Assembly: GCF_001190925.1 (NCBI RefSeq)
Contig: NZ_CP011072.1
Location: 4,030,001 to 4,094,000, forward strand
DNA: 64,000 nt
Source of the DNA: Azoarcus sp. CIB
GTDB lineage: Bacteria > Pseudomonadota > Gammaproteobacteria > Burkholderiales > Rhodocyclaceae
Direction of reading: 5' to 3'
In this document: piece by piece, positions 21,280 to 61,013 of the stretch
Numbering within the stretch: the first letter of the stretch is position 1
Layout of the letters: each line of letters begins with the position of its first letter
Notes under the pieces: model-generated
The model's input: the letters and a program-made list of their open reading frames with translations, nothing else
The model's database searches: none
Told to the model about the DNA's origin: nothing
Program-made: the position numbers and the translations under genes

Positions 21280-24200
21280 ATGTATTCAATCCGCACCTTT
21301 CTGACCGACTCGCGCACGCTCTCCTTTATCGGCGTCCTGGCCCTTGCGGCCTTCTTCATGCTGGGCGCCGAAACGCTGGAACTCGCATTGACATGGGCAG
21401 CGATCGCCTCGTGCGCCCTCCTCGCAATCTGGATCGCGGTGTGGGCGTGGCGGCGACGGCGGGCCGGTCTCGCCGCTTCCGCTCTCGAACGGATGCTCGA
21501 CCCGCGTACAGGCGATGGCGAAGGCCGGACGAAGGGAGAAATCGAAACCCTGCGCCAGCGCATGCAGGAAGCCATCCGCACGATCAAGACGTCGAAGCTC
21601 GGGCTGGTCTCCGGACGCGCCGCGCTGTATGAGCTGCCGTGGTACATCACGATCGGCAACCCGGCGGCAGGCAAGAGCACGGCCGTCGTCAATTCGGGCC
21701 TCACTTTCCCCCTCGGTGATGCGGCCGGCAGCGTCGTGCAGGGGCTCGGCGGGACGCGCAACTGCGACTGGTTCTTCACGACGGAAGGAATCCTCCTCGA
21801 CACGGCCGGCCGCTACTCCGTCCATGAAGAAGACCGCGAGGAATGGCTGGGCTTTCTCGACCTGTTGAGAAGAAATCGTCCGCTCGCGCCGATCAACGGG
21901 ATCATCGTCACGGCGAGCATCGGCGAGCTGCTCCGCAATCCCCCCGGCGTCGCAATTGCGCTCGCCAAGAACCTGCGACAGCGGGTTCAGGAACTCACCG
22001 AACGTCTGGAAGTGTTCGCGCCGATCTACGTGATGTTCTCGAAGGCCGATCTCATCGCGGGGTTCAACGAATTCTTTCAGGACGTGGACTGGAACGAGCG
22101 CGACCGCGTGTGGGGCGCCACGTTGCCCTACGAGACCAACGGAAGCAATGACGCCATAGGGCTGTTCGACCGCTACTTCGATGAACTGTACGAAGGGCTG
22201 CGCGAAATGAGCGTAGCGCAGATGTCGATTGCCCGCGGCGAGCGCATGGCGCCGGGGCTGCTCACCTTCCCGCTCGAGTTCGCGGCGATCAAGCCGGTCT
22301 TGCGATCCTTCATCGCCACGCTGTTCGAGGAAAACCCGTTCCAGTTCAAACCGATCTTCCGCGGCTTCTACATCACCTCGGCAATCCAGAGCGGAGAGAC
22401 GCCCAGCAGCTCCAGCGAGCGAGTGGAAAAGCGCTTCGGGCTTTCCGGCGACGGTCCGGCCGCAGCCCGGATCGCCTCGAACAACGGCTTCTTCCTGAAG
22501 GACCTCTTCTCCAAGGTGATCTTCGCCGACCGTAACCTGGTACGGCACTATGCCAGCAGGAAAAAGAAACGCCTGCATCACGCCACCTCGCTGGCCGCGG
22601 CTGCACTGCTGGGCCTTTCGCTGGCCGGCTGGAGCTGGTCATACGCAAACAATCGCAGCCTCGTCGAAAATGTCCGAGCCGACCTCGACCGGGCTGTCCG
22701 CCTTCAGGAAGATCGCATCGATCTGCAGTCACGGCTCGAAGCGCTCGAACTCCTTCAGGATCGCATTGCGCAACTGGAGCGTTTCGAAACGGAGCCCTCC
22801 CGGTCGCTCCGGCTCGGTCTCTTCCAGGGCAAGGAGGTGAAATCCAGATTGCTCGAAGAGTACTACCGGGGTATCACCGAAATCATGCTCCGTCCGGTCA
22901 GCGAAAGCATCGAAGGCTTCCTTGCCGCAGTCAATCGCAACTCGGGCCGTCTGCGACAGACCGACAGTGCCGACCGGGGGACATCCGGCAACACATCTCC
23001 GAACGGGCAGCCGTACAAGGAAGCCACACCGACCAACGTCGAGGACGCCTACAACGCCCTGAAAACCTATCTGATGCTGGGCGACAAGTCACACACCGAG
23101 GTCGGCCATCTCTCCGATCAGCTAAGCCGCTACTGGCGCACCTGGCTGGACGCCAATCGCGGTTCCATGCCGCGGGAACAGATGATGCGCAGCGCAGAGC
23201 GGATCATCAGTTTCCACCTACGGCACGCGAACGATCCCGGCTGGCCGACGATCGCGGGCAAGCTGTCCGTGATCGACGAAACGCGCGGAACGCTGCGCCA
23301 TGTGGTGCGCGGCATGCCCGCAATCGAACGCGTCTATGGGGACATCAAGGCGCGAGCGGCCACCCGATTCCCCCCGGTGACGGTAGCAAACCTCGCGGGC
23401 GCGGATGACACGGGTCTTGTCAGCGGCAGTCACGTGATATCCGGTGCATTTACCGCCGAAGCTTGGCGGAGCTATGTCGAAGTCGCCATCAAGAATGCGG
23501 CCACGGGAGAACTCCACAGTACGGATTGGGTCCTCGACACCAGCGCTAAGGACGACCTGTCCCTCGCCGGCAGCCCGGAGCAGATCCAGAAGACGCTCGT
23601 GGCGATGTACAAGAAGGAATACGTCCAGGAGTGGCAGAAGTTCGTCACCGGGATCGGCGTCAGCGGTTTCGACGGTTTCCCTGCCGCGGTGGCCGCAATG
23701 AATCGACTCGGCGACATAACCGCCTCCCCCTTGGGGAAACTGCTGCGCACCGTGCATGAGCAGACCGCTTGGGACAATCCGGGCGTAAGCCATGCCGTAG
23801 CCGCGCGCGCGCAGAAAGGCTTCATCGAGTGGTTCAAGCAGTCGATTCTGCGGATGTCGCCCGCTCCGGTCACTCTGGAAGTGTCCTCGACCTCGGCGAC
23901 GATCGCCAGCCCGATGGGAGCCATCGGCCAGGAATTCGTCGGCGTCGGTCGTCTGCTCGCGCGGCGGGACAACGGGGAATCGATCCTGGACCTCTACCTG
24001 CGCCGCCTCTCCGGACTGCGGACCCGTCTCAATCTCCTCGCCAACCAGGGTGACCCGGGCCCGGGCGCGGTCAAGCTGATGAGCGAAACGATCGAAGGCG
24101 GCAATTCGGAGCTCGCAGACACGCTGCGGTTCGTGGACGAGCAGATGCTGACGGGCATGCCCGACAACCAGCGCGAGGTGCTCCGCCCGCTGCTCGTGCG

Positions 24201-25050
24201 GCCCCTGCTGCAGACCTTCGCGGCCCTGATCGGCCCGGCCGAGCGGGAACTCGACAAGAGCTGGATTGCGAACGTGTATGAGCCGTTCGGGCGGCAGCTT
24301 GCCGGAAAATACCCGTTCGATGCCAAGTCGGGCATAGAAGCAACACCGGCCGAGATCGCGCAGATCTTTGGTCCGGAGGGCGCAATTTCGAAGTACGCGG
24401 CGACAAGCATCGGGCCGCTGATGGTGCGGCGCGGCGACTATATCGAACCAAGGACCTGGGGCGATCTCGGCATCCGCCTGCGTCCCGATTTCCTCGCCGC
24501 GTTCCCGGGCTGGGTCGCGCCGCTGGACGGCAGCAGCGCCACACAAGCCGCGGCGGTAGCGCAAACGAGCTTCAGAGTACTGCCGCTGCCGTCGCCGGGC
24601 ACGACCGAATACACGATTGAGATCGACGGACAAAGACTGCGCTACCGCAACGGGGCCGCCCAGTGGGCAACCTTCGTGTGGCCGAATCCGGCGGGAACCC
24701 CAGGCGCGCGAGTCATCGCAACGACCTTCGAAGGACAGGAACTCGAGGTCGCGAATTTCAGCGGGCGCTTCGGACTCGAAAAGCTGATCAACTCCGCCAC
24801 CCAAACCCGCAATGCCGACGGCTCCTTCAACCTCGCCTGGCAAGCGGGCGAAGTCTCGGTTCCGGTCACACTCAAGATCGTAAGCAGCCCGGACATGCAG
24901 ACGGGCAAGAGCGCCAGCGCCAAGGGCAGCCGCAATGCTCCCCTCCCCTCCAGCGTGGCCGGCGAGGCAGTAAAGGCACGCGCCGACGCCGAAACCGGAA
25001 GCCCGGCGACGCTCGCAGCCACGAATCAGGAACGGGGGAACCGGCCATGA
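21280..25050 (+). CDS. tssM: T6SS membrane complex protein TssM (IcmF)
   Basis: A 1256-residue inner membrane protein that, with TssJ and TssL, forms the T6SS trans-envelope complex. Two transmembrane helices (about 12-55) lead to a cytoplasmic NTPase-like domain with an intact Walker A motif GNPAAGKST near residue 126 and DTAGRY near 172. A third helix lies near 437-455 and is followed by the large periplasmic IcmF-related and C-terminal domains. Length fits the family. It begins three bases after the preceding gene and overlaps tagF by the ATGA junction. TssL and TssJ genes are not seen nearby. Confidence 0.96.
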   Translation: MYSIRTFLTDSRTLSFIGVLALAAFFMLGAETLELALTWAAIASCALLAIWIAVWAWRRRRAGLAASALERMLDPRTGDGEGRTKGEIETLRQRMQEAIRTIKTSKLGLVSGRAALYELPWYITIGNPAAGKSTAVVNSGLTFPLGDAAGSVVQGLGGTRNCDWFFTTEGILLDTAGRYSVHEEDREEWLGFLDLLRRNRPLAPINGIIVTASIGELLRNPPGVAIALAKNLRQRVQELTERLEVFAPIYVMFSKADLIAGFNEFFQDVDWNERDRVWGATLPYETNGSNDAIGLFDRYFDELYEGLREMSVAQMSIARGERMAPGLLTFPLEFAAIKPVLRSFIATLFEENPFQFKPIFRGFYITSAIQSGETPSSSSERVEKRFGLSGDGPAAARIASNNGFFLKDLFSKVIFADRNLVRHYASRKKKRLHHATSLAAAALLGLSLAGWSWSYANNRSLVENVRADLDRAVRLQEDRIDLQSRLEALELLQDRIAQLERFETEPSRSLRLGLFQGKEVKSRLLEEYYRGITEIMLRPVSESIEGFLAAVNRNSGRLRQTDSADRGTSGNTSPNGQPYKEATPTNVEDAYNALKTYLMLGDKSHTEVGHLSDQLSRYWRTWLDANRGSMPREQMMRSAERIISFHLRHANDPGWPTIAGKLSVIDETRGTLRHVVRGMPAIERVYGDIKARAATRFPPVTVANLAGADDTGLVSGSHVISGAFTAEAWRSYVEVAIKNAATGELHSTDWVLDTSAKDDLSLAGSPEQIQKTLVAMYKKEYVQEWQKFVTGIGVSGFDGFPAAVAAMNRLGDITASPLGKLLRTVHEQTAWDNPGVSHAVAARAQKGFIEWFKQSILRMSPAPVTLEVSSTSATIASPMGAIGQEFVGVGRLLARRDNGESILDLYLRRLSGLRTRLNLLANQGDPGPGAVKLMSETIEGGNSELADTLRFVDEQMLTGMPDNQREVLRPLLVRPLLQTFAALIGPAERELDKSWIANVYEPFGRQLAGKYPFDAKSGIEATPAEIAQIFGPEGAISKYAATSIGPLMVRRGDYIEPRTWGDLGIRLRPDFLAAFPGWVAPLDGSSATQAAAVAQTSFRVLPLPSPGTTEYTIEIDGQRLRYRNGAAQWATFVWPNPAGTPGARVIATTFEGQELEVANFSGRFGLEKLINSATQTRNADGSFNLAWQAGEVSVPVTLKIVSSPDMQTGKSASAKGSRNAPLPSSVAGEAVKARADAETGSPATLAATNQERGNRP

Positions 25051-33003: not shown

Positions 33004-34719
33004 ATGGCAGCAAACCCCCAGACCGCCCTGAGCGGACTCGCGCGAGCACTGATCCAGCACGGCCGGCTCTCCGAAGCCGATGCGATTGCGTGCACCAAGA
33101 GCGCGGCAGCCGTCCCGAACGGCTTCATCCTCGAACTTGCGCAGCGCAAGCTCCTGAACACCAAGGCCGTAGCCTGGTTCGCAGCCGAAACGTTCGGCTA
33201 TCCGCTGCTCGACATCTCGTCCGTGGATCGCGCCAGCATCCCCCGCGATGCGATCGACCGCAAGCTGATGGCCAAGCATCAGGTCGTCGCGCTGGGCAAA
33301 CGCCAGAACCGCCTCACCGTTGCGACGGCCGACCCGTCCAACATGCGCGCGCTCGACGAGATCCGCTTCCAGACCGGGATGCAGGTCGACCTCATCGTCG
33401 TCGAAGCCGACCGTCTGGCACGCCTTGCGGAAGCGCTGTCCGAATCGACCGAAGACACGCTCAAGGATCTCACGGGCGAAGAGTTCGACATGGACCTCCT
33501 GCAGGACCAGGAGGCCACGGAGCAGGCGAGCGAGGACGCCTCCGCGGAAGTCGATGATGCCCCCGTCGTCAAATTCATCCAGAAGATCCTGATCGACGCG
33601 ATCAACGAAGGCGCGTCCGACGTCCACTTCGAGCCGTACGAAAAGTACTACCGCATCCGCGTCCGTACCGACGGCATCCTGCGGGAAATCGCCCAGCCGC
33701 CGTTGATCCTGAAGGAAAAGATCGCCGCGCGCATCAAGGTCATCTCGCGCCTGGACATTTCCGAGAAGCGCGTCCCGCAGGACGGACGCATGAAGCTCGT
33801 CCTATCGAAGAACAAGTCGATCGACTTCCGCGTGTCCTCGCTGCCGACCCTGCATGGCGAGAAGATCGTCATGCGTATTCTCGATGCTTCCTCGGCAATG
33901 CTGGGGGTCGACGCACTCGGTTACGAGCCGGAACAGAAAAAAGTGCTGCTCGACGCGATCGAGCGTCCGTACGGAATGATTCTCGTGACCGGACCGACCG
34001 GCTCGGGCAAGACCGTGTCGCTGTACACCTGCCTGAACATCCTCAACAAGGCGGGCGTCAACATCTCGACCGCGGAGGACCCCGCGGAAATCAACCTGGC
34101 CGGCATCAATCAGGTCAACGTGAACGACAAGGCCGGTCTGACCTTCGCCGCGTCGCTGCGCGCCTTTCTGCGCCAGGATCCGGACGTGATCATGGTCGGC
34201 GAAGTTCGCGATCTCGAGACCGCCGAAATCTCGATCAAGGCGGCGCAGACCGGCCACCTGGTGTTATCGACGCTGCACACCAACGACGCCCCGACCACGC
34301 TCGAGCGCCTGCGCAACATGGGCGTCGCACCGTTCAACATCGCCTCCTCGGTGATCCTGATCACCGCCCAGCGCCTCGCGCGGCGCCTGTGCACGTGCAA
34401 GCAACCGGTGGACATCCCGGTAGAAGCCTTGCTCGAAGCGGGATTCAGCGGCGAAGACCTCGACGGCAGCTGGCGCCCGTACGGCCCTGTCGGGTGCGAA
34501 CGCTGCAAGGGCAGCGGCTACAAGGGGCGCCTGGGTATCTACCAGGTCATGCCCATTTCCGAAGAAATTGCCCATATCATCATGACCAACGGCAATTCGA
34601 TGGACATCGCGGCTCAAGCTCAGCGCGAAGGCGTGCGCGACCTGCGCCAGTCCGGTCTGCTGAAAGTGAAACAGGGTGCGACCTCGCTTGAGGAAGTGCT
34701 CGCCACCACCAACGAATAG
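33004..34719 (+). CDS. pilB: Type IV pilus assembly ATPase PilB
   Basis: The motor that drives pilin polymerisation at the inner membrane. The 571 residues have an N-terminal MshEN domain (about 1-150) and the PilB/GspE ATPase core. The Walker A motif is GPTGSGKTVSLY near 331, the Asp box is around STAEDPAEI, the Walker B is VIMVGEVRD near 400, and the His box is TGHLVLSTLHTND. The zinc site is CTCKQPVD near 460 with CERCKGSGYKGR near 500. All catalytic parts are present. It is followed after 16 bases by pilC. Confidence 0.97.
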   Translation: MAANPQTALSGLARALIQHGRLSEADAIACTKSAAAVPNGFILELAQRKLLNTKAVAWFAAETFGYPLLDISSVDRASIPRDAIDRKLMAKHQVVALGKRQNRLTVATADPSNMRALDEIRFQTGMQVDLIVVEADRLARLAEALSESTEDTLKDLTGEEFDMDLLQDQEATEQASEDASAEVDDAPVVKFIQKILIDAINEGASDVHFEPYEKYYRIRVRTDGILREIAQPPLILKEKIAARIKVISRLDISEKRVPQDGRMKLVLSKNKSIDFRVSSLPTLHGEKIVMRILDASSAMLGVDALGYEPEQKKVLLDAIERPYGMILVTGPTGSGKTVSLYTCLNILNKAGVNISTAEDPAEINLAGINQVNVNDKAGLTFAASLRAFLRQDPDVIMVGEVRDLETAEISIKAAQTGHLVLSTLHTNDAPTTLERLRNMGVAPFNIASSVILITAQRLARRLCTCKQPVDIPVEALLEAGFSGEDLDGSWRPYGPVGCERCKGSGYKGRLGIYQVMPISEEIAHIIMTNGNSMDIAAQAQREGVRDLRQSGLLKVKQGATSLEEVLATTNE

Positions 34720-34735
34720 GGAACATCGACAGCTC

Positions 34736-35967
34736 ATGGCGACCACCACCCGAGCCAGAGGCGCCGCCGCCGGCCCCAAGGAAACCCTCTACACGTGGGA
34801 GGGCAAGGACAAGAACGGCAAGCAGGTGCGCGGCGAAATGCGCGCGAGCGGCGAATCGGTCGTTCAGGCCACGCTGCGCCGTCAGGGCGTGCAGGTCCTC
34901 AAGGTCAAGAAGGCCAAGATGTCCCGCGGCCACAGGATCACCGACAAGGACATCGCGCTGTTCACGCGCCAGCTGGCGACGATGATGAAGTCCGGCGTCC
35001 CGCTGCTGCAGGCCTTCGACATCGGCATCAAGGGATCCGGCAACCCCAGCCTGGCGCGCCTGCTGAACGACGTACGCAACGACGTCGAAACCGGATCCAG
35101 CCTCTCCCAGGCCTTCAGCAGACATCCGGTGTATTTCGACAAGCTGTTCTGCAACCTGGTCGGGGCCGGCGAGCAGGCGGGTATTCTCGACAGCCTCCTC
35201 GACCGCATCGCGACCTACAAGGAAAAGATTCTCGCGATCAAAGGCAAGATCAAGTCCGCGATGTTCTACCCGATGGCGGTCATTGTGGTCGCGGCGATCG
35301 TCGTGACCGTGATCATGCTGTTCGTGGTGCCCGAGTTCAAGAAGGTGTTCGCGAGCTTCGGCGCAGAGCTTCCTGCCCCGACAATGGTAGTGATCGGAAT
35401 CTCCGACGCCTTTGTCGAGTACTGGTACGTCGTATTCGGCATCATCGCGGGCGTCATCACGGGGATCAGCTACACTTACAAGCGCTCGACGGCGATGCAG
35501 ATCGCGCTCGACCGGATAATACTCAAGCTGCCTGTCGTCGGCGATATCGTCCTGAAGGCAACGATCGCGCGCTGGACGCGCACGCTGTCGACGATGTTCG
35601 CGGCCGGCGTGCCGCTCGTTGAAGCGCTCGACTCGGTCGGGGGCGCCGCAGGCAACTACGTGTACCTGACGGCGACCAAGCAGATCCAGACTGAGGCAGC
35701 ACCGGCACCAGCCTGACCGTGGCGATGCAGAACTCGAACGTTTTCCCCAGCATGGTGGTGCAGATGGTCTCGATCGGCGAGGAGTCGGGCCAACTCGACG
35801 CGATGCTCGGAAAGGTCGCCGATTTCTTCGAACAGGAAGTCGACGACGCCGTCGCCGGCCTGTCGACCCTGCTCGAACCGATCATCATGGTCTTCCTCGG
35901 CGTGGTCATCGGCGGCCTCGTCGTCGCGATGTACCTACCGATCTTCAAGCTCGGCCAAGTCGTCTGA
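34736..35967 (+). pseudogene. pilC: pilC, type IV pilus inner-membrane platform protein, frameshifted
   Basis: PilC is the platform protein that works with PilB. Two T2SF domains with their membrane helices are intact to about residue 320. The reading frame then turns to an abnormal end at 35716, and the expected continuation ([15 protein letters not shown] through [10 protein letters not shown]) resumes in another frame. Restoring one base near 35695-35697, where GAGGCAGC should be GAGGTCAGC, recreates the family phrase [14 protein letters not shown] and a 410-residue PilC. It lies between pilB and pilD. The cause is either a real one-base deletion, which would block pilus assembly, or an assembly error. 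Confidence 0.88.
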
Positions 35968-36021
35968 CCCCTCCCTGCCGTCCGGCGCACACGTGCCGGG
36001 CGGCACCACGCAAGCCCTCCC

Positions 36022-36873
36022 ATGCCCGATTTCCTCAGCGACCCGATCGTCTTCACCTTCCTCGCAACGCTTCTCGGCCTTTTCGTCGGCAGTTTCCTGA
36101 ATGTCGTGATCCATCGCCTGCCGCAGATGATGGAGCGCGAATGGCATGCGCAGGCCGCGGAACTGCGCAACGAGCCGCCCCCGCAGCAGGACACATTCAA
36201 CCTCGCCACCCCGCGCTCGCGCTGCCCGCACTGCGGGCACATGATCACGGCGCTCGAGAACATCCCGGTCGTCAGCTACCTGATGCTGCGGGGGCGCTGC
36301 CGCCATTGCAGCGCGCACATCAGCCGCCGCTATCCCGTCGTCGAGATGCTGACGGCCGTCCTGTCGGGCTACGCCGCCTGGCATTTCGGTTTCGGCCTTG
36401 CTGCACTCGGCGCCCTGGCCTTCGTGTGGACGATGATCGCGCTCGCCTTCATCGACCTCGACACCCAGCTTCTGCCCGACAGCCTGACGCTGCCCCTGCT
36501 GTGGCTGGGACTCGCGCTCAACCTCGGCGGCACTTACTCGGACATTTCGGCGAGCGTGATCGGCGCGATGGCCGGCTACCTTGCGCTGTGGTCGGTGTAT
36601 TGGCTCTTCAAGCTCGCGACCGGCAAGGAAGGCATGGGCTATGGCGACTTCAAGCTGCTTGCCGCCATTGGGGCGTGGCTGGGATGGCAGATGCTGCCAC
36701 TGACGATCCTGTTCTCGTCGCTGGTGGGTGCAGCGGTCGGCATCAGCCTGATCGTGTTTGCGCGCCACGGCCGCAACGTCCCCATCCCCTTCGGCCCCTA
36801 TCTCGCAGCGGCGGGCGTGCTGGCGATGTTCTGGGGGCAGACCCTGACGGAACTCTACCTCGGCAACTTCTGA
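36022..36873 (+). CDS. pilD: Prepilin peptidase / N-methyltransferase PilD
   Basis: Cleaves and N-methylates type IV prepilins. The 283-residue membrane protein has the N-terminal GSFLNVVIHRLP, the cytoplasmic zinc tetracysteine site (CPHC near 69 and CRHC near 93), and the two catalytic aspartates, in FIDLDTQLLPD near 152 and in GYGDFKLLAAIG near 210. Multiple transmembrane helices follow. It starts 54 bases after the broken pilC and closes the pilBCD set. The coaE and zapD genes that usually follow are absent here. Confidence 0.96.
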   Translation: MPDFLSDPIVFTFLATLLGLFVGSFLNVVIHRLPQMMEREWHAQAAELRNEPPPQQDTFNLATPRSRCPHCGHMITALENIPVVSYLMLRGRCRHCSAHISRRYPVVEMLTAVLSGYAAWHFGFGLAALGALAFVWTMIALAFIDLDTQLLPDSLTLPLLWLGLALNLGGTYSDISASVIGAMAGYLALWSVYWLFKLATGKEGMGYGDFKLLAAIGAWLGWQMLPLTILFSSLVGAAVGISLIVFARHGRNVPIPFGPYLAAAGVLAMFWGQTLTELYLGNF

Positions 36874-52195: not shown

Positions 52196-53445
52196 ACACC
52201 GCCGCCAAATCTGCTTCCGCCGCCCCCGTTCACGCACCGATGTCGCAGTTCCCGATCCGCAACGGCGAACTGATCGTCGGCGGCGTGCCGCTCACGCGCC
52301 TGGCGGCGCGCGTCGGACAGACACCGTTCTACGCCTACGACCGGCACCTGCTGGGCGCACGCGTGGGCGAACTGCGGGACGCGCTGCCCGATGCGATCGA
52401 CCTCCACTATGCCGTGAAGGCAAACCCGATGCCCGCGCTGGTCGGGTTCATGGCCGAACTCGTCGACGGCCTCGACGTGGCGTCCGCAGGCGAGTTGCGC
52501 GTGGCGCTCGACGCCGGCTGCCCGCCCGCCGACATCAGCTTCGCCGGCCCCGGCAAGCGCGACACCGAGCTCGAGCAGGCGGTCGCGGCCGGCGTGCTGC
52601 TGAACGTCGAATCGGCGGGCGAGCTGCGTCGGCTTGCGGACATCTCCGCCCGCCTCGGCTGGCCGGCGCGAGTCGCCCTGCGCGTGAATCCGGACTTCGA
52701 ACTCAAGAGCTCGGGCATGAAGATGGGCGGTGGCCCCAAGCCCTTCGGTGTCGATGCCGAGGCGGCGCCGGAGCTCCTCGCCGAGCTCGGACGGCTCGGG
52801 CTCGCCTTCGAGGGCTTCCACCTCTTCGCGGGCTCGCAGAACCTGCGCGCGGAGGCGATCGTCGAAGCGCAACAGAAGAGCTTCGAGCTCGCGTTGCGCC
52901 TCGCCGACGCAGCGCCTGCGCCGGTGCGCGTGCTGAACCTCGGCGGAGGCTTCGGAATCCCCTACTTTCCCGGCGAAACGCGCTTGGATCTTGCCCCGAT
53001 CGGCGCGAATCTCGCCGAAACCGCGCATGCAGCGGAAAGCCGGATGCCGGACGCGACGCTCGTCATCGAACTGGGGCGCTATCTCGTCGGCGAGGCGGGC
53101 GTCTACGTCAGCCGCGTCGTCGACCGCAAGGTGTCACGCGGGCAGGTCTTCCTCGTGTGCGACGGCGGCCTGCACCACCACCTCTCGGCCTCGGGCAATT
53201 TCGGCCAGGTCATCCGCAAGAACTATCCGACGGCGATCGGCAACCGCGCGGACGCGCCCGCCTCCACGGTGTCGACGGCGGTCGGTCCCCTGTGCACCCC
53301 GCTCGATCTCCTGGCGGAGCGCATGCCTCTGCCGGAAGCGCAGGTCGGCGATCTCGTCGTGATCTTCCAGTCCGGCGCCTACGGCGCGAGCGCCAGCCCG
53401 CAGGCCTTCCTCGGGCATCCGCCGGTGGTCGAGGTGCTGGTCTAG
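52192..53445 (+). CDS. PLP-dependent decarboxylase, exosortase A system-associated type
   Basis: A 417-residue fold-type III PLP enzyme of the alanine racemase/ornithine-DAP decarboxylase group. The PLP lysine is in HYAVKANPMPAL near residue 70, the phosphate-binding GGG is in LNLGGGFGIPYFPGE near 252, and the dimer-site motif is SGAYGASASPQ near 397. From memory it matches TIGR03099, whose substrate is unproven; an amino acid attached to the neighbouring ACP is an attractive idea. The GTG at 52192 overlaps the ligase TGA. Its TAG shares a CTAG with the convergent next gene. Confidence 0.88.
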   Translation: MNTAAKSASAAPVHAPMSQFPIRNGELIVGGVPLTRLAARVGQTPFYAYDRHLLGARVGELRDALPDAIDLHYAVKANPMPALVGFMAELVDGLDVASAGELRVALDAGCPPADISFAGPGKRDTELEQAVAAGVLLNVESAGELRRLADISARLGWPARVALRVNPDFELKSSGMKMGGGPKPFGVDAEAAPELLAELGRLGLAFEGFHLFAGSQNLRAEAIVEAQQKSFELALRLADAAPAPVRVLNLGGGFGIPYFPGETRLDLAPIGANLAETAHAAESRMPDATLVIELGRYLVGEAGVYVSRVVDRKVSRGQVFLVCDGGLHHHLSASGNFGQVIRKNYPTAIGNRADAPASTVSTAVGPLCTPLDLLAERMPLPEAQVGDLVVIFQSGAYGASASPQAFLGHPPVVEVLV

Positions 53446-53855
53446 CAGGGCCCCTGGCCTGGGCGGATGGTAACGACGAGGTCCTCCGTCCCACTGCACA
53501 GGCTGTAGCTGGCATTCTGGACGATCGTGTGCACCTTGTACGTGTAGTTCTGGCCCCGACCGTAGTCGTAGCGAACCTGGGTGCCGGCGCCGTTGCCCGT
53601 CACCATCCAGGTACCCACCTGCTTGCTCGGATCGACCTTGTCGTTCGGCCCCATCTTGTAGTCGATCAGAGCGCCCCCCGCCTGGTGATATTCCTGCCAT
53701 CGGTCGGTGCCGCGCAATGCGCAGAGTGTCTTGCCCTGCAGAAGCGTCGTCAACGTGGTGGCACCGGTGACCTGGGAAGCCGCCGTACACGCGGCGCCGG
53801 CGGTAGTGGGCATCAACGCAAACGACAGGACGGCAGCGGCTAGCAGGCACTTCAT
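53442..53855 (-). CDS. Hypothetical secreted protein with four cysteines
   Basis: Not recognised. The 137-residue protein has a clear signal peptide (about 1-21, MKCLLAAAVLSFALMPTTAGA) and a mature part with four cysteines, the last being the final residue. That suggests two disulfides and periplasmic or extracellular location. The body, with YDYGRGQNYTYKVHTIVQ, looks like a small beta-rich domain. It is convergent with the decarboxylase gene and the stops overlap by four bases. It could be a stray gene inside the polysaccharide locus or a small cell-surface protein. Confidence 0.74.
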   Translation of the reverse strand: MKCLLAAAVLSFALMPTTAGAACTAASQVTGATTLTTLLQGKTLCALRGTDRWQEYHQAGGALIDYKMGPNDKVDPSKQVGTWMVTGNGAGTQVRYDYGRGQNYTYKVHTIVQNASYSLCSGTEDLVVTIRPGQGPC

Positions 53856-54077
53856 GACGATCCTCCGGAAACGAATGCGGCCCGATCGGCGGGTCGCGGC
53901 AGGGAAAGAACGAAATCAGTCTAGACCCACATTTCGTGCCGCGCTTGCGTGATATCCAACACGCGTGCATTCAGTCACATTGATTGTCCGCGTCGCCCCG
54001 CATCACATAATAGGGCTCTGCCTTGACGCGGCGACAGTGGCGCCCGCCCCTGCGCCAGCCCTCCGCCGGAGCACGCC

Positions 54078-57000
54078 TTGTCAGCTTCTGCCCCTGTCGT
54101 CGCGCAAAATCGCCATGCCGCAGCGACGCTCGCATGGGCGCTCTTCATAGTCTACGGAAGCCTCGTCCCGCTCGACTTCCGTCCGCACCCGGACGCCTGG
54201 CAGGCCTTTCTCGCCACTCCCTACCTTTCGCTCGGCGTCGGATCACGCGCCGACTGGGTCGCGAACATCCTGCTTTACCTGCTGCTGGCGTACTTCGCGA
54301 CCGGCGCAATCCAGGCGAACCAACGGAGCCCGCGAATCTTCAGGCTTGCGGGCGCCCTGGGTGCGTGTCTTGCGCTCGCCCTGGGAATCGAGTTCCTGCA
54401 GCTCTACTTTCCCCCGCGCACCGTTTCACTCAATGACCTCATTGCTGAATTCCTCGGCACCGGACTGGGTTGTGCACTGTGGTTCGCGTCGGGGCGTCGA
54501 TTCGCGGCGATGTGGGCACGCTTCGTCGGCGGCGGCACGCATAGCCTTCGCGCCCTGCTCGCGCTCTACGCCAGCGGCTACCTGGCGTTCAGCCTCTTCC
54601 CCTACGACTTTCTCGTTTCCGCCACGGAGCTCACCGCCAAGTTGGCCAACGTCGGGGCCATCGCCTTCGGCCCCACCGCCAGTTGCGGCGCGGGCCTGAG
54701 CTGCGCAACCAAGCTGGTCGCCGAGGCCGTGCTGGTGATGCCGTTCGGTGCGCTGTTGGTGATCGGTGCGGGTACGCCGCAAGCGCGGCGGGCAGGCGCA
54801 TTCGCGGGTCTTGCCTTGGGGATCTGTCTCGGCCTGGCGATCGAACTCCTCCAGATCCTGCTCGCGTCGGGCACGACTCAAGGGATATCCGTGCTCACGC
54901 GCGGACTCGGCGTGGCGTGGGGTGCAGCCCTTGCGCGCAGCGCCATCGCGGGCGGACTACGGATCGAACCAGGCGCTACCCGGCGCGTGGTGATCCTCGC
55001 CGTGCCACTTTACCTCCTCCTGGCGCTCGCACTGAACGACGTGCTGCCCCTGCGCCTCCAGCCGCTCTGGGCTGCAAGTGAAAAGCTCGCCGAGCTGCGC
55101 TTCCTGCCCTTCTACTACCACTACTACACTTCCGAAACCGCTGCCGTGCGCAGCGTGCTGGCGATTGCCGGGAGCTATGCACCGATCGGCCTCGCGGCCG
55201 CGCTCGCGTTTCCGGGCAGGCGGCACGCGGTCTGGGCTGCGATCCTGCTTGCGATCGCCTTATGCCTCGGCATCGAAACCCTGAAACTCTTTACCGCCGG
55301 TAAGCACCCCGATCCGACCAATCTCCTGATCGCAGCGACAAGCGTGTGGCTCACCCAATTACTGGCAAGCCGGGTGCTACGCCGCGTGCAGGACGCAAGC
55401 ACGACAACCGCGCGACCTCCCCCCCGCCGGCCCGCGACCCTGCGGCGGCTCGCCTGGGGGGTCGCGCTACCCGTCGCTGCGCTCGGCGTCGTAGTCGCCG
55501 CGACCCGCCCTCCTGCATCCTGGTCGCCCAGTGACAACGGAGCCCACACCACCTTCCCTCCGCCCGCGGCCCTGCCGGCCGTGTCGCTGCCCGGCTTCCG
55601 CGAGCCCCATCCCCGGCTTCCGCACCCGTCGGCGACCGATCTGTCGCAACTCGCGGCGCACAATCCGGGCTATGTCGCGGCCCGGCGCAATGCTGCAGGC
55701 GGAGGCAAAGGCCCGGTCGATGCCGTCGCCTTCACCGCCCTCGCCGAACCCGGCAGCCAGGACCTCGGCCTGCTGCACCGCCGTCTGATGGAAATGCGCT
55801 TCACCGACCGCGGCGACGACCAGGTCAAGGCGCTGGCGCTCGCCTACGACTGGCTGCACGCCCAGTGGAGCTACGCCGAACGCATCGCGCTCCAGGACAA
55901 GCTCGGCGAGGGCTGCCAGTACGTCATCGACTTCATCCGCCGCGAACGCCTCTCGCCGTACAACGCGATCCTCTACAACAGTCCACTTCAGGCGCTGATG
56001 GCCTGCTCCATTGCGCTGTACCGCGAACACCCGCGCGGGGACGCCTTCATGTCCTTCACGCACGACCTGTGGACGCTTCGCGTGCTGCCGGTGTGGCGTC
56101 AGGTCTTCGGCACGCACGGCGGCTGGCACGAAGGCGGCGAATACGTCGCGGTCGGCATCGGCCAAGCCGTCTACACGCTGCCGGCGATGTGGCTCGCCGC
56201 GACCGGCGACGACCTCTTCGCGTCCGAAGCCGGGCTGCGCGGCTTCCTCGACTTCCTCGTCTATCGAATGCGCCCGGACCGCACCCAGTTCCGCTGGGGC
56301 GATGCGACCAACCTGCAGCGGCACCCGCCCGACGCCGCGCCGCTCGCGCTGCACTACCGCCACGCCGCGGCCTACAGCCTTGCCGCAATGCCTGGGGCTC
56401 CGACGCCCACCGGCTGGCCTTGGGGTCCGCTCTCCGACACGACTCTTAGCGATCCGCGCGCAGTCACGACGCTCCCCCTTTCGCGCCGCTTCGACGGCAT
56501 CGGCATGGTTGTCGCCCGCAGCGACTGGACACCCGATGCCACCTACGTCACGTTCAAGGCCGGTGACAACTTCTGGTCCCACACCCATCTGGACCAAGGT
56601 GCCTTCACGATCGACAAGGGCGGGCCTCTCGCGATCGACAGCGGCATCTACGGCCCGCGCTACGGCTCGGACCACCACATGAACTACGCCTATCAGACAA
56701 TCGCCCACAACACGATCACGGTCACCGACCCGCAAGACCACGCGCCGCTACCCGGAGCGGAAGGCCCCCGCCCCATCGCCAACGACGGCGGCCAGCGCCG
56801 CATTGGCTCGGGATGGGGCTTTACGCCCGGCCCCATCGACCGCGCCGAATGGGAACGCGAACGCGAGCTCTACCACACCGGAAAGATCGCGCACTACCTC
56901 GAACAGGACGGGCTCACCGTCGCCGTCGCCGACCTCACCCCCGCCTACACCAACGCCCGCTCCGGCAAGGGCCAGCCCTCCGACCGCAGCCGCCGCGTCG

Positions 57001-57662
57001 AACGTGCATGGCGGGTGTTCGGCTACGACCGGATCGACGATGTCGTCGTGGTCTACGACGACATCCGCGCTACAGACCCCACCTTCCGCAAGCGCTGGCT
57101 GCTCCACACGGTCGACGCGCCACAACTCGGCGACGCAAACTTCCTCGTCACAATCCCGCCGCAGGCCGCCAGCGGGCGTGGCGGCGGACGCCTCGACGGA
57201 CGCATCCTGCTGCCGCAGGGGGCGCACCTGCTGCCCATCGGCGGGCGCGGATTCGAGTTCCTCGTCGACGGCCGCAACTACGACGAAGGCGCCACGCTCA
57301 ACGCCGCTCCGCAACCGGGAAGCGCCACCCCCGAAGCCGGCCGGTGGCGCATCGAGATCACACCCGCGCGCGAAGCCCGCGACGACCAGTTCCTCGTCGT
57401 CATGCTGCCCACGCACATCGACGCCCAGCCGCAACACCGCGTCCGGCTCCTGCGCGAAGGCGCCGACGTCGGCTGCGAGATCATTGGCCCGCAGCGCACC
57501 ACGCGATGGTGGTTCACCCCGGGCCGGACCGACGTGCGCATCGAGATCGAGCGCGACGGCGCCGTCACGACACACCGCCTGCGCAGCGAATACCCCGCCC
57601 CAGCCTCACCCGAGCACGGCTGGGCAAGCAGGCTGCGCGCGGCGCTGGGATTCGATCGCTGA
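54078..57662 (+). CDS. VanZ-type membrane domains fused to heparinase II/III-like lyase
   Basis: A 1194-residue fusion. Residues about 12-440 are multi-pass membrane segments containing two or three VanZ-like repeats (YGSLVPLDFRP near 25, FSLFPYDFLVS near 173, then a block with FYYHYYTSE near 345), followed by another helix near 455. Residues about 500-1190 are a soluble heparinase II/III or alginate-lyase-like part with FWSHTHLDQGAFTIDKGG near 831, AHNTITV near 876 and a beta-rich C-terminus. The catalytic His-Asp-type region is visible. The domain pair suggests a membrane-held polysaccharide lyase trimming its own polymer. The TTG start at 54078 has CGGAG upstream. Confidence 0.83.
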   Translation: MSASAPVVAQNRHAAATLAWALFIVYGSLVPLDFRPHPDAWQAFLATPYLSLGVGSRADWVANILLYLLLAYFATGAIQANQRSPRIFRLAGALGACLALALGIEFLQLYFPPRTVSLNDLIAEFLGTGLGCALWFASGRRFAAMWARFVGGGTHSLRALLALYASGYLAFSLFPYDFLVSATELTAKLANVGAIAFGPTASCGAGLSCATKLVAEAVLVMPFGALLVIGAGTPQARRAGAFAGLALGICLGLAIELLQILLASGTTQGISVLTRGLGVAWGAALARSAIAGGLRIEPGATRRVVILAVPLYLLLALALNDVLPLRLQPLWAASEKLAELRFLPFYYHYYTSETAAVRSVLAIAGSYAPIGLAAALAFPGRRHAVWAAILLAIALCLGIETLKLFTAGKHPDPTNLLIAATSVWLTQLLASRVLRRVQDASTTTARPPPRRPATLRRLAWGVALPVAALGVVVAATRPPASWSPSDNGAHTTFPPPAALPAVSLPGFREPHPRLPHPSATDLSQLAAHNPGYVAARRNAAGGGKGPVDAVAFTALAEPGSQDLGLLHRRLMEMRFTDRGDDQVKALALAYDWLHAQWSYAERIALQDKLGEGCQYVIDFIRRERLSPYNAILYNSPLQALMACSIALYREHPRGDAFMSFTHDLWTLRVLPVWRQVFGTHGGWHEGGEYVAVGIGQAVYTLPAMWLAATGDDLFASEAGLRGFLDFLVYRMRPDRTQFRWGDATNLQRHPPDAAPLALHYRHAAAYSLAAMPGAPTPTGWPWGPLSDTTLSDPRAVTTLPLSRRFDGIGMVVARSDWTPDATYVTFKAGDNFWSHTHLDQGAFTIDKGGPLAIDSGIYGPRYGSDHHMNYAYQTIAHNTITVTDPQDHAPLPGAEGPRPIANDGGQRRIGSGWGFTPGPIDRAEWERERELYHTGKIAHYLEQDGLTVAVADLTPAYTNARSGKGQPSDRSRRVERAWRVFGYDRIDDVVVVYDDIRATDPTFRKRWLLHTVDAPQLGDANFLVTIPPQAASGRGGGRLDGRILLPQGAHLLPIGGRGFEFLVDGRNYDEGATLNAAPQPGSATPEAGRWRIEITPAREARDDQFLVVMLPTHIDAQPQHRVRLLREGADVGCEIIGPQRTTRWWFTPGRTDVRIEIERDGAVTTHRLRSEYPAPASPEHGWASRLRAALGFDR

Positions 57663-57829
57663 ATTGCCGCACCGCCGCAGCGAAGGCACGGTGACAGTGC
57701 GAAATTTCACCGATCCGCCCTGACATCCCTGCCAGAATCGGGACTGCCATAGCCGTGCGGCCCCGCACGGCAGCCGCACGCCGATGCTCATCAGCTGGAA
57801 TGGGGTTTCACCCGGAGTTGATTGAATCC

Positions 57830-58645
57830 ATGAATGGCCTGACGAACCTCTACAGCTACCGCGAGCTGATCGCGGCGCTTGCATGGAAGAACATCGCGGT
57901 GCGGTACAAGCAGTCCTACATGGGCATCCTGTGGGCGGTGCTCAAGCCCGTTGTGCTGGTAATCATCTTCGTCATCCTGCGCAGCATCGTCGGCATCGAC
58001 AGCGGCACCATCCCCTATCCCGTGCTGACTTATTGCGCCCTCACGATCTGGATCTTCTTCCAGGAGTCGGCCTCGGAAGGGGTCAACAGCGTGGTCGGCA
58101 ACACCAACCTCATCCGCAAGATCTACTTCCCCCGCGAAGTCTTCCCGCTGACGAGCGTCGTCACCAAGCTCGTCGAGCTGTGCATCGGCCTCGTGATCCT
58201 CGCCGGCCTGATGGCTTGGTACGGGATGGCGCCCAACTGGCAGATGCTATGGATCCCCGTGCTGGTGCTGTACGCGGTTCTTGCCGCGCTCACCATCGCC
58301 TTCGTCGGGGCCGCGCTCAATGTCTATTACCGCGACATCGCGGCGGCTCTTCCCGTGCTGTTGTCGCTGATGATGTACATGTCGCCGGTGATCTACCCGC
58401 TGCAACTCGTCAAGGACAAGCTCCTCGTTCAACACGCAGGCGGCGATTGGTCGCAAGCGCTCTATCTCGTCTTCACGCTCAATCCGTTGGCCGGGCTGAT
58501 CGACGCATTCCAGAACGTCACGCTGCGCGGACTGCCGCCCGACGCCGAAGCGATCCTGCCGGGCCTTGTGCTGACGCTCGGGCTGCTGCCGTTCAGCTAT
58601 CTGTACTTCAAGCGCGCTGAAGCGTATTTCGCGGACGTGATCTGA
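57830..58645 (+). CDS. wzm: Polysaccharide ABC exporter permease (Wzm-type)
   Basis: A 271-residue ABC-2 permease. It has the N-terminal YSYRELIAALAWKNIAVRYKQSYMGILWAVLKP, the hallmark of O-antigen and capsule exporters, six membrane segments, and the extracellular-side helix before VSEP-like regions such as IYFPREVFPL. It exports a finished glycan in one step with the next gene's ATPase. The start is uncertain: ATG at 57830 has GGAG 12 bases upstream, and ATG at 57800 would add ten residues. The stop is two bases before the ATPase gene. Confidence 0.9.
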   Translation: MNGLTNLYSYRELIAALAWKNIAVRYKQSYMGILWAVLKPVVLVIIFVILRSIVGIDSGTIPYPVLTYCALTIWIFFQESASEGVNSVVGNTNLIRKIYFPREVFPLTSVVTKLVELCIGLVILAGLMAWYGMAPNWQMLWIPVLVLYAVLAALTIAFVGAALNVYYRDIAAALPVLLSLMMYMSPVIYPLQLVKDKLLVQHAGGDWSQALYLVFTLNPLAGLIDAFQNVTLRGLPPDAEAILPGLVLTLGLLPFSYLYFKRAEAYFADVI

Positions 58646-58647
58646 CC

Positions 58648-59904
58648 ATGCCGATCATCGAAGTCGATCACGTCACGAAGGAATTCCGGCTGGGGCAGCT
58701 CACGAGCCTCAAACAAAGTGCGCTCAATGCCCTGAACCGCCTTACCGGCCGGCCCGTAGAACAGCGTCAGCCGTTCAAGGCCCTCGACGACGTCACCTTC
58801 TCCGTCGAACAGGGCGAAGTGCTTGGAATCATCGGCCACAACGGCGCCGGCAAGAGCACGCTGCTGAAACTGCTCGCCAACATCTCGAAGCCGACGGCAG
58901 GGCGGATTGCCGTAAGGGGCAAGGTCGCACCGCTGATCGAAGTCGGCGCCGGCTTGGTCGCCGACCTGACCGGCCGCGAAAACATCTACCTGAACGGCGC
59001 GATCCTAGGCATTCCGAAAGCCGAAATCCGCCGCAAGTTCGACGAAATCGTCGCCTTCGCCGAACTGGAGCAGTTCATCGATACGCCGATCAAGCGCTAC
59101 AGCTCGGGCATGCAGGTGCGGCTCGGGTTTGCGGTCGCCACCAGCGTCGAATCCGACATCCTGATCGTGGATGAAGTATTGGCGGTAGGCGACCTGGCGT
59201 TCCAGCGGAAGTGTTTTGACCGGATGGAGGATCTGATCAAGTTCCAAGGGAACACGATTCTCGTCGTGAGCCACAATATCAGACAGATAGAACGCATGTG
59301 CAAGAGAGTCCTACTTCTCGACCATGGCCATCTAATTGCGGACGACGACCCGAAAGTTGTCTGCGATGAATTCTATGCCCGAAGTCAGTCGAAAATCGCA
59401 GAAACATCAGCCTCAAGATCTGCCCATCGAGGACGCGTCGAATCAACAGGTGAAATCGACCTGTTAGAAATGTCGATCGAGGATGCAAATGGCAAAACTC
59501 TCGACCAAGTAACGACAGGTTCAACGTTCTCAATTCACCTTAGACTGCGGTGCCATGAGAGAGCCGAGAACATCACGATTGGTCTAGGAGTGCACACAAC
59601 CGACTTTGTGTACCTCACGACCCACAACAGCGAAATAACCCAGTCGCGTGTCGATCTAGGCGCCGGCGATCACGACATCTATCTGAGAATAAGCCACTTT
59701 CCCTTGCTCCCAGGCCTCTATATGTGGCGAATGGGTATAACCTGCGGCGATACCTATCGGACAGCTTTTTATGGAGAGAACCTCCTGAGCATCTCTGTCC
59801 TCAAACCACACGAAAGGCATGTTCCGGCTTCCATGCGCGACGGCTTCTTTGCGTTGGACGGCGTATGGGAATTCGCATCACACCCCGAAAGCTCCGTCAC
59901 ATAG
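58648..59904 (+). CDS. wzt: Polysaccharide ABC exporter ATPase with Wzt-type C-terminal domain
   Basis: A 418-residue ATPase. The nucleotide-binding half (about 1-235) has Walker A GHNGAGKST near 68, the signature YSSGMQVRLGFAVA near 150 and Walker B DILIVDEVLAVGD near 170. The C-terminal half (about 270-400) is a Wzt-type beta-sandwich that recognises the modified non-reducing end of the glycan: GLGVHTTDFVYLTTHN and LLPGLYMWRMGIT. So polymer length is probably set by a terminal modification, possibly by the methyltransferase next door. The base composition drops to AT-rich inside this gene from about 59250. Confidence 0.95.
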   Translation: MPIIEVDHVTKEFRLGQLTSLKQSALNALNRLTGRPVEQRQPFKALDDVTFSVEQGEVLGIIGHNGAGKSTLLKLLANISKPTAGRIAVRGKVAPLIEVGAGLVADLTGRENIYLNGAILGIPKAEIRRKFDEIVAFAELEQFIDTPIKRYSSGMQVRLGFAVATSVESDILIVDEVLAVGDLAFQRKCFDRMEDLIKFQGNTILVVSHNIRQIERMCKRVLLLDHGHLIADDDPKVVCDEFYARSQSKIAETSASRSAHRGRVESTGEIDLLEMSIEDANGKTLDQVTTGSTFSIHLRLRCHERAENITIGLGVHTTDFVYLTTHNSEITQSRVDLGAGDHDIYLRISHFPLLPGLYMWRMGITCGDTYRTAFYGENLLSISVLKPHERHVPASMRDGFFALDGVWEFASHPESSVT

Positions 59905-59951
59905 CCACATATAAGGTGGCTCATAAATTGACGACCGAGAGCGCACAAGCC

Positions 59952-61013
59952 ATGCAAATTGCAGAACGCATCAGCGTCGAGAATCGCTGCAGAATTTGCA
60001 ACGAGCCAGGCGACCACGAAGTCTTCCGCGTCCGAGAGATGATGTTCGGAACCCGAGACACATTCGAGTACTTTCAATGCAAGCGCTGCGAATGCCTGCA
60101 AATTTCAGAGATCCCTGACAATCTTTCATCGTATTACCCGGAAAACTACTACTCCCATCAAAACATCACCACTGAAAACAAGAAATGGATCCTGACGTCA
60201 ACTCTTGAGAAATTACTCATTGACACGGCGCTATTCAATAAAAAATACAAACTTTCGAGCATTGCGAGGCGCTTTGTTTCATTGCCAAATTATTTTTTTC
60301 GAGCGCGCCCAACCCTGCTCCAACGAGCGCGAATTAATGATTACCGCGCGCGGATTCTCGATATAGGATGCGGCACACAGGCGTTGTGGCTACAAGATTT
60401 GCAGCGAGTTGGCTTTGCCAATCTAACTGGCATCGACCCATTTGCGAAGGGCAATTTTTCTATCGGACGAATTAAGATCCTCTGCATGGACGCATCTGAA
60501 CTCGCACACAATACAGATCACAAATTCGATTTGATCGCCCTGAACCACTCGCTCGAACACATCCCCGACCAGTTCGGAACGCTTGCGTCCATCAACAGAC
60601 TCTTGTCTCCGACCGGCACGTGCGTTATCCGCATCCCTACAATTTCATCCATATCATGGAAAGTCTATGGTGTGGACTGGGTTGAACTCGACGCACCTCG
60701 CCATCTATACATTCACTCGAAAAAAAGCATCCGAGAATTAGCACGGCGCGCGGGCCTTGAACTCTTCGACACTCAATACGACACAACGGCGTTTGAGTTC
60801 TATGGAAGCGAACAATACAGGCTCAATATCCCGCTTACCTCTCCTGAATCGTTATGGGCAAACCGGGAGAGCACCGTATTCACTAGAGAAAAACAAATTG
60901 AATTCGCGGAACGTGCCGAGAAGGCGAATGCAGACGGCACGGCGGGACGAGCATGCTTCTTCTTTCGTCACGCCAGACCATCAGACCCGTCGACTGACAT
61001 TGAATTATTTTAA
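59952..61013 (+). CDS. Class I SAM methyltransferase with N-terminal zinc site
   Basis: A 353-residue methyltransferase. The N-terminus has a CRIC...CKRCEC zinc-ribbon-like region (about 16-50), seen in sugar or polyprenyl methyltransferases of O-antigen loci. The SAM motif I ILDIGCGTQALWLQDL is near residue 136, followed by NHSLEHIPDQF near 200. It sits between the Wzt gene and a putative glycosyltransferase, so it may cap or modify the glycan. The gene is AT-rich for this genome. The ATG at 59952 is chosen since the longer frame runs in Wzt's 3' end. Confidence 0.85.
   Translation: MQIAERISVENRCRICNEPGDHEVFRVREMMFGTRDTFEYFQCKRCECLQISEIPDNLSSYYPENYYSHQNITTENKKWILTSTLEKLLIDTALFNKKYKLSSIARRFVSLPNYFFRARPTLLQRARINDYRARILDIGCGTQALWLQDLQRVGFANLTGIDPFAKGNFSIGRIKILCMDASELAHNTDHKFDLIALNHSLEHIPDQFGTLASINRLLSPTGTCVIRIPTISSISWKVYGVDWVELDAPRHLYIHSKKSIRELARRAGLELFDTQYDTTAFEFYGSEQYRLNIPLTSPESLWANRESTVFTREKQIEFAERAEKANADGTAGRACFFFRHARPSDPSTDIELF

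Follow-up and report, generated by a model that had tools for sequence, protein, structure and literature searches.

The window examined here is a stretch of 64,000 nucleotides from Azoarcus sp. CIB (contig NZ_CP011072.1, positions 4,030,001 to 4,094,000), and the gene of interest lies at positions 54078 to 57662 of its forward strand. It forms a single open frame of 1194 amino acids with no internal stop and begins with a TTG codon, 6 nt downstream of a GGAG motif (Table 1). Pfam recognizes VanZ (PF04892) in three stretches (E 3.6e-19, 70.1 bits against a gathering score of 30.1), followed by DUF4962 at residues 583-743, above its cut-off, and Hepar_II_III_C at residues 800-885 (E 3.4e-10); these domain scores rule out a chance open reading frame. 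The first-pass annotation had described one chain in which about 440 residues of VanZ membrane repeats precede a heparinase-type lyase. That description is borne out by the frame, by Pfam and phmmer searches, by an AlphaFold model and by 51 homologues, and the domain boundaries were placed correctly.

The fusion is one gene, since a search of residues 430-640 turned up no in-frame start codon preceded by a Shine-Dalgarno-like site, and the VanZ/lyase junction is open in 51 of 51 aligned full-length fused homologues. A reading as two genes with an internal ribosome site, named at the outset as a result that would undo the fusion, is thus ruled out. Azoarcus sp. CIB carries one full-length copy of the fusion (whole-genome search) and one separate VanZ-only protein of about 390 residues elsewhere (profile search).

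An AlphaFold model built with the 51-row alignment (mean predicted local distance difference test score, pLDDT, 83.5; predicted template modelling score, pTM, 0.80) places 13 long helices within residues 10-475 and follows them with an alpha-toroid and a beta-sandwich. Twelve of the transmembrane (TM) helices fall into three four-helix repeats (repeat 1: 10-29, 54-79, 86-110 and 118-151; repeat 2: 153-173, 206-231, 240-260 and 269-290; repeat 3: 298-319, 353-377, 382-403 and 414-442), and helix 13 follows at 455-475. Lysine plus arginine make up 18% of the predicted cytoplasmic loops versus 7% of the periplasmic loops; by the positive-inside rule the N-terminus is therefore predicted to be inside, and the lyase domain and both active faces periplasmic.

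The closest sequence match of the C-terminal domain in the PDB is Pedobacter heparinase II (phmmer, residues 640-1134, E 2e-41), which is also the best structural match (fold search, E 1.6e-23). Dermatan sulfate epimerase 1 (DS-epi1; 6hzn) ranks with the best hits of the fold search (E 3.8e-15) and is absent from the sequence matches. The NCBIfam HepB equivalog NF045571 gives a partial match of 167 bits, below its 600-bit cut-off. In the alignment, H837, D854 and H877 (each 51/51) fall on chain positions 383, 400 and 426 of 2fuq, the zinc ligands of heparinase II, and Y862 aligns with the second tyrosine position. Y689 and H835 (50/51 each) align with Tyr257 and His406, both catalytic in heparinase II (PMC12088678, Table 4). 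Another residue must serve as neutralizer, because His202 (the second base) and Glu205 (the neutralizer) of heparinase II are not conserved; N634 (49/51) and N629 are candidates. The question raised earlier of whether the lyase catalytic residues are present thus has a divided answer: the tyrosine, the histidine and the metal triad are kept, and His202 and Glu205 are not. On account of these two positions we file the domain, by its sequence, as PL21-like rather than as heparinase II proper. By inference from PMC12088678, the missing His202 position would predict a preference for glucuronate over iduronate.

The VanZ array is strictly conserved in its first repeat, where D59, N63, E105, Q108, R114 and D120 are each present in 51 of 51 sequences. 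The model places four of them on the periplasmic side: N63 close to where helix 2 begins, E105 and Q108 towards the end of helix 3, and D120 close to the beginning of helix 4. The active-site pattern is not kept in repeat 2; in repeat 3, E400 is found in 48/51 sequences and D412 and T414 in 51/51. According to PMC12419801, VanZ-1 proteins carry an Asn in helix 2 (H2) and an Asp-containing motif in H4, allied families carry ExxQ in H3, and the pockets of these lipocone proteins face outward, for which action on outer-leaflet polyprenyl-linked sugars was proposed in 2025 without an assay. N63, E105xxQ108 and D120 match the H2 Asn, H3 ExxQ and H4 Asp of VanZ-1 and its allies, and repeat 1 is predicted to hold an intact lipocone-type active site.

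Homologues were collected by a scan of one genome per species, which gave 80 loci, and by a family search, which gave more. The 51 full-length fused proteins that were aligned come from Beta- and Gammaproteobacteria, and include members from Aromatoleum, Thauera, Azoarcus, Thiobacillus, Methyloversatilis, Methylothermaceae, Haliea and others. VanZ and heparinase domains had been described as usually separate; within this lineage, fusion is the rule. Three gammaproteobacterial homologues (L023, L030 and L032) are without VanZ and have one TM helix before the lyase. They form one clade (100*) in the lyase tree, placed among fused beta forms (defined below) with weaker support of 80-85, and this position suggests that they arose by loss of VanZ. 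These lyases keep a single TM helix, so anchoring does not require the array. Another heparinase II/III-like protein, stand-alone and with one TM helix, lies beside a VanZ-ligase fusion (L078:7514-10051, + strand), with similar stand-alone lyases in several genomes that encode exosortase A (XrtA).

The arrays fall into two groups, which we name alpha and beta for this analysis and which are distinct from the published VanZ-1 and VanZ-2. In the VanZ tree, alpha comprises fusions to a ligase (18) and to a lyase (14), and beta the remaining lyase fusions and stand-alone VanZ proteins, both groups being starred at 100; both array types keep the repeat-1 residues. Alpha arrays of the window type also precede an O-antigen-ligase-like (Wzy_C) membrane domain with a carbohydrate-binding-module-like beta insertion. 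This ligase assignment rests on Wzy_C matches in 9 of the 18 members (best E 4.9e-10) and on single-member matches to IctB and TIGR03097; a PDB sequence search with the C-terminus gave no match, and a fold search matched only the insertion. In the lyase tree, 13 alpha lyases and two beta lyases make up a 15-row clade (98*) nested in the larger beta set. The lineage of the window's lyase has likely exchanged a beta array for the alpha type found on ligases, a direction graded no higher than likely because the trees come from quick searches and have long branches. Other arrangements were also seen: a tandem pair made up of a beta- and an alpha-type lyase fusion (G495:C10:45001-62000, locus L139), a third architecture of 822 residues that joins a VanZ array to a membrane domain X of unassigned type (L069:11341-13806, - strand), and, in L036, L043 and L056, the same X domain placed ahead of a beta VanZ-lyase within a single chain that reaches about 1490 residues.

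A natural replacement of the fusion is found in Aromatoleum tolulyticum (G137). About 55 kb of the locus align with that species at 94-96% identity, spanning the acyl-CoA ligase, Wzm/Wzt, methyltransferase, glycosyltransferase, sulfotransferase and exosortase A genes. The fusion and its divergent neighbor, a small secreted protein, are replaced by a 3.8 kb inverted cassette that encodes a beta VanZ-lyase, with a lyase 56% identical in protein, and identity resumes at 57843; the only other break is a gap of about 1.6 kb near L101:12132-13744. A beta VanZ-lyase here takes the place of the alpha fusion within an otherwise nearly identical locus, which implies that both can serve the same polymer locus. 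The small secreted protein is absent from the A. tolulyticum locus, and its homologues are confined to the neighborhood of alpha-type VanZ fusions, of the lyase and the ligase kind alike, with 0 of 54 beta-lyase loci having one; it is possibly a partner of the alpha array.

The surrounding genes belong to an exosortase-A polymer locus, with XrtA itself (TIGR03109) at 347 bits and TIGR03097, TIGR03098, TIGR03108, TIGR04063 and TIGR03019 all over cut-off, together with a polysaccharide deacetylase, a sulfotransferase and a sulfatase-glycosyltransferase frame. Co-occurrence was counted in 370 genomes of the class, 76 of which have XrtA over cut-off; all p values given here ignore relatedness. XrtA is present in 11 of 12 lyase-fusion genomes versus the 76/370 overall (Fisher p 1.5e-7) and in 9/9 ligase-fusion genomes (p 4e-7), the latter value being slightly too small because the match in one of the nine (G418, 147.7 bits) is below cut-off, leaving 8/9 above it. 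The locus sulfotransferase, counted at E below 1e-50, is found in 16 genomes, 15 of which have a VanZ-array or lyase match (p 5e-13), and in 6 of the 12 fusion genomes (p 1.9e-6). The position directly upstream of Wzm/Wzt, to which the first-pass annotation had drawn attention, is real in the window and not general: the exporter is near the fusion in the window and in L003, L048, L053 and L066, wzm is divergent in L035, and other genes lie downstream of the fusion in the close relative L002. A Wzm/Wzt-specific function is thereby ruled out as the general role, and the XrtA system is the steadier association.

Table 1. Features of the VanZ-lyase gene and its surroundings; coordinates are window positions unless a locus is named.
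Feature	Position	Strand	Evidence
VanZ(x3)-lyase fusion gene, 1194 aa	54078-57662	+	Pfam, phmmer, 51 homologues, AlphaFold
Likely ribosome-binding site of fusion gene, GGAG (candidate)	54068-54071	+	read directly
VanZ repeat 1, residues 10-151, four TM helices, invariant D59/N63/E105/Q108/R114/D120	54105-54530	+	Pfam, model, 51/51 conservation
VanZ repeat 2, residues 153-290, predicted active-site Asp absent	54534-54947	+	alignment, model
VanZ repeat 3, residues 298-442	54969-55403	+	conservation, model
TM helix 13, residues 455-475, predicted to return chain to periplasm; matches lone anchor of VanZ-less homologues	55440-55502	+	model, topology
Lyase alpha-toroid, residues 519-730, with N634 and Y689	55632-56267	+	alignment, model, fold search
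Lyase beta-sandwich, residues 800-1170, with H835, H837, D854, Y862 and H877	56475-57587	+	alignment, model, fold search
Secreted protein gene and fusion gene, block replaced in A. tolulyticum	53443-57843		locus alignment
Small secreted protein, 137 aa, signal peptide, divergent from fusion	53442-53855	-	
Exosortase-A-associated acyl-CoA ligase, TIGR03098	50300-52195	+	801 bits vs cut-off 592
Wzm-type ABC exporter permease, start 57755 or likelier ATG 57830	57755-58645	+	domain search; A. tolulyticum identity
Wzt ATPase with C-terminal Wzt_C domain	58648-59904	+	domain search
Methyltransferase; frame start overlaps wzt, true start probably later	59724-61013	+	domain search
VanZ-O-antigen-ligase fusions	L072, L073, L075, L076, L078-L081, L090-L100		

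Further genes were recorded in passing. A frame of 1108 residues at L101:5523-8849 (+) joins a GT2 glycosyltransferase to a sulfatase domain, with a putative TTG start; exosortase A is fused to a C-terminal EpsI domain at L102:4024-5730 (-); and the window also holds a type VI secretion tssM gene at 21280-25050 (+), followed by genes for PilB, PilC and a prepilin peptidase at 33004-36873.

We propose, at a probability of roughly one half, that the protein is a periplasm-facing inner-membrane polymer-processing enzyme of an exosortase-A-linked exopolysaccharide pathway, in which VanZ handles the lipid-linked end and the lyase trims the chain. The array would recognize the undecaprenyl-phosphate-linked end of the exported polymer at the periplasmic face and might also cleave or transfer it. 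TM helix 13 would hold the heparinase-II-like domain just above the membrane, where this domain would cut a uronic-acid-containing chain by beta-elimination. Together they could trim, release or clear polymer still at the membrane, for length control, release or clearance. We infer the lyase activity, its chemistry and its substrate from sequence, and likewise VanZ catalysis on a phosphate-linked lipid head group. Sulfated glycosaminoglycan-like polymers have been reported in granular sludge, their bacterial pathways being described as not well known (PMC10483923); that the window locus makes such a polymer is a guess.

Several observations weigh against this proposal. The aligned stretch Y628-N634 has no His or Glu that could stand in for His202 and Glu205, and the VanZ-1 H4 motif DxDDxxxN is only partly kept (D120, with N/E at 124, and Ser at position 117 in 48/51). 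A fold search with the VanZ part matched no solved structure, and the genes did not reveal the uronic acid of the polymer. We found no measured activity for any VanZ-lyase, this protein included, and the co-occurrence tests are uncorrected for relatedness.

The first-pass annotation implied that the protein is simply a tethered lyase, with VanZ as a membrane platform. The fusion itself, most of the catalytic residues and the predicted periplasmic position of the lyase bear that annotation out in part, and the unproven function of VanZ and the ability of two very different arrays to carry the lyase would suit a bare platform. That VanZ is only a tether is nevertheless unlikely, because a single TM anchor suffices in L023, L030 and L032 and the active-site positions N63, E105, Q108, R114 and D120 are invariant in 51 sequences and kept by both array types; an array was also retained when the gene was replaced in A. 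tolulyticum. For the C-terminal domain, the main rival is a polymer-level uronyl C5-epimerase like human DS-epi1, which would edit the chain without cutting it. DS-epi1 and heparinase II have DUF4962 and conserved catalytic residues in common, and the authors of the DS-epi1 study state that a lyase can become an epimerase through small changes in the active site and regard the two activities as close (PMC8006597); the fold match to DS-epi1 and the setting of our gene, within a biosynthetic locus with a sulfotransferase, speak for an epimerase too. We favor a lyase because the metal triad, aligned to heparinase II, is His/Asp/His and not the His/Glu/Asn of DS-epi1, and because the sequence is closer to heparinase II, as is the fold; the sequence search did not find DS-epi1, and an epimerase seems decidedly unlikely.

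Heparinase II and its polysaccharide lyase (PL) relatives are mostly catabolic, from which one might expect a scavenging enzyme that breaks down old or foreign polysaccharide as a food source or to allow dispersal. A gene inside an exporter and exosortase polymer locus, with predicted inner-membrane attachment of its product and co-occurrence with XrtA, argues against this, and we consider it the least probable of the readings. Scarcely more probable is a catalytically dead domain that binds the polymer and guides it to the exporter or assembly machinery: the loss of His202 and Glu205 would fit, but the two tyrosines, the histidine and the metal triad are kept in nearly all of 51 divergent sequences, and the His202 equivalent is absent from other lyase families, which use Asn as neutralizer (PMC12088678).

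A bolder form of our proposal, which we put forward tentatively as doubtful, is a bifunctional release enzyme in which VanZ cuts or transfers the undecaprenyl-phosphate link and the lyase cuts the chain, with VanZ arrays serving as a general lipid-carrier-end module for a ligase or a lyase. If true, it would give VanZ a biochemical function, and Proteobacteria would mount on these arrays either a ligase to attach a chain or a lyase to cut one. VanZ reduces the binding of lipoglycopeptide antibiotics to cells, by a mechanism called unknown in 2020 (PMC7146870). The link between VanZ and glycan handling, already drawn from the first fusion, is strengthened because a second VanZ fusion carries an O-antigen-ligase domain. 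The covalent tie of VanZ to a lyase whose reaction can be measured, and to a ligase in relatives, offers a concrete system for testing the role of VanZ, and the natural swap in Aromatoleum provides a ready comparison between two species. In our literature search no paper paired VanZ with exosortase, and none brought heparinase together with exosortase and polysaccharide; the main text of PMC12419801 has no heparinase, lyase or exosortase, and the fusion may appear in its supplementary data.

Among known systems, the VanZ-1 lipocones, as presented in PMC12419801, share with the fusion the four-helix units, the H2 Asn, H3 ExxQ and H4 Asp, an exopolysaccharide-locus context and a proposed outer-leaflet orientation; the fusion differs in having three tandem units in one chain, the middle one degenerate, and in its partly kept H4 motif. 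The VanZ-O-antigen-ligase fusions share the alpha array and occurrence in XrtA genomes (9/9 in the sample), whereas their C-terminus is a Wzy_C-type membrane ligase and not a lyase. DS-epi1 has the same fold and DUF4962 and works in the biosynthesis of a sulfated uronic-acid polymer, but it is an epimerase with other metal ligands. Heparinase II (PL21, Pedobacter heparinus, 2fuq) has the same toroid and beta-sandwich, the equivalents of Y689 and H835, and the metal triad; in place of a soluble secreted enzyme the fusion has 13 TM helices, without His202 and Glu205 and well short of the HepB cut-off. AlgL is a periplasmic alginate lyase encoded with the alginate biosynthesis and export machinery; it is soluble, has no VanZ and stands in an unrelated chain context, and the fusion resembles it as a lyase encoded beside the machinery that makes and exports its putative substrate.

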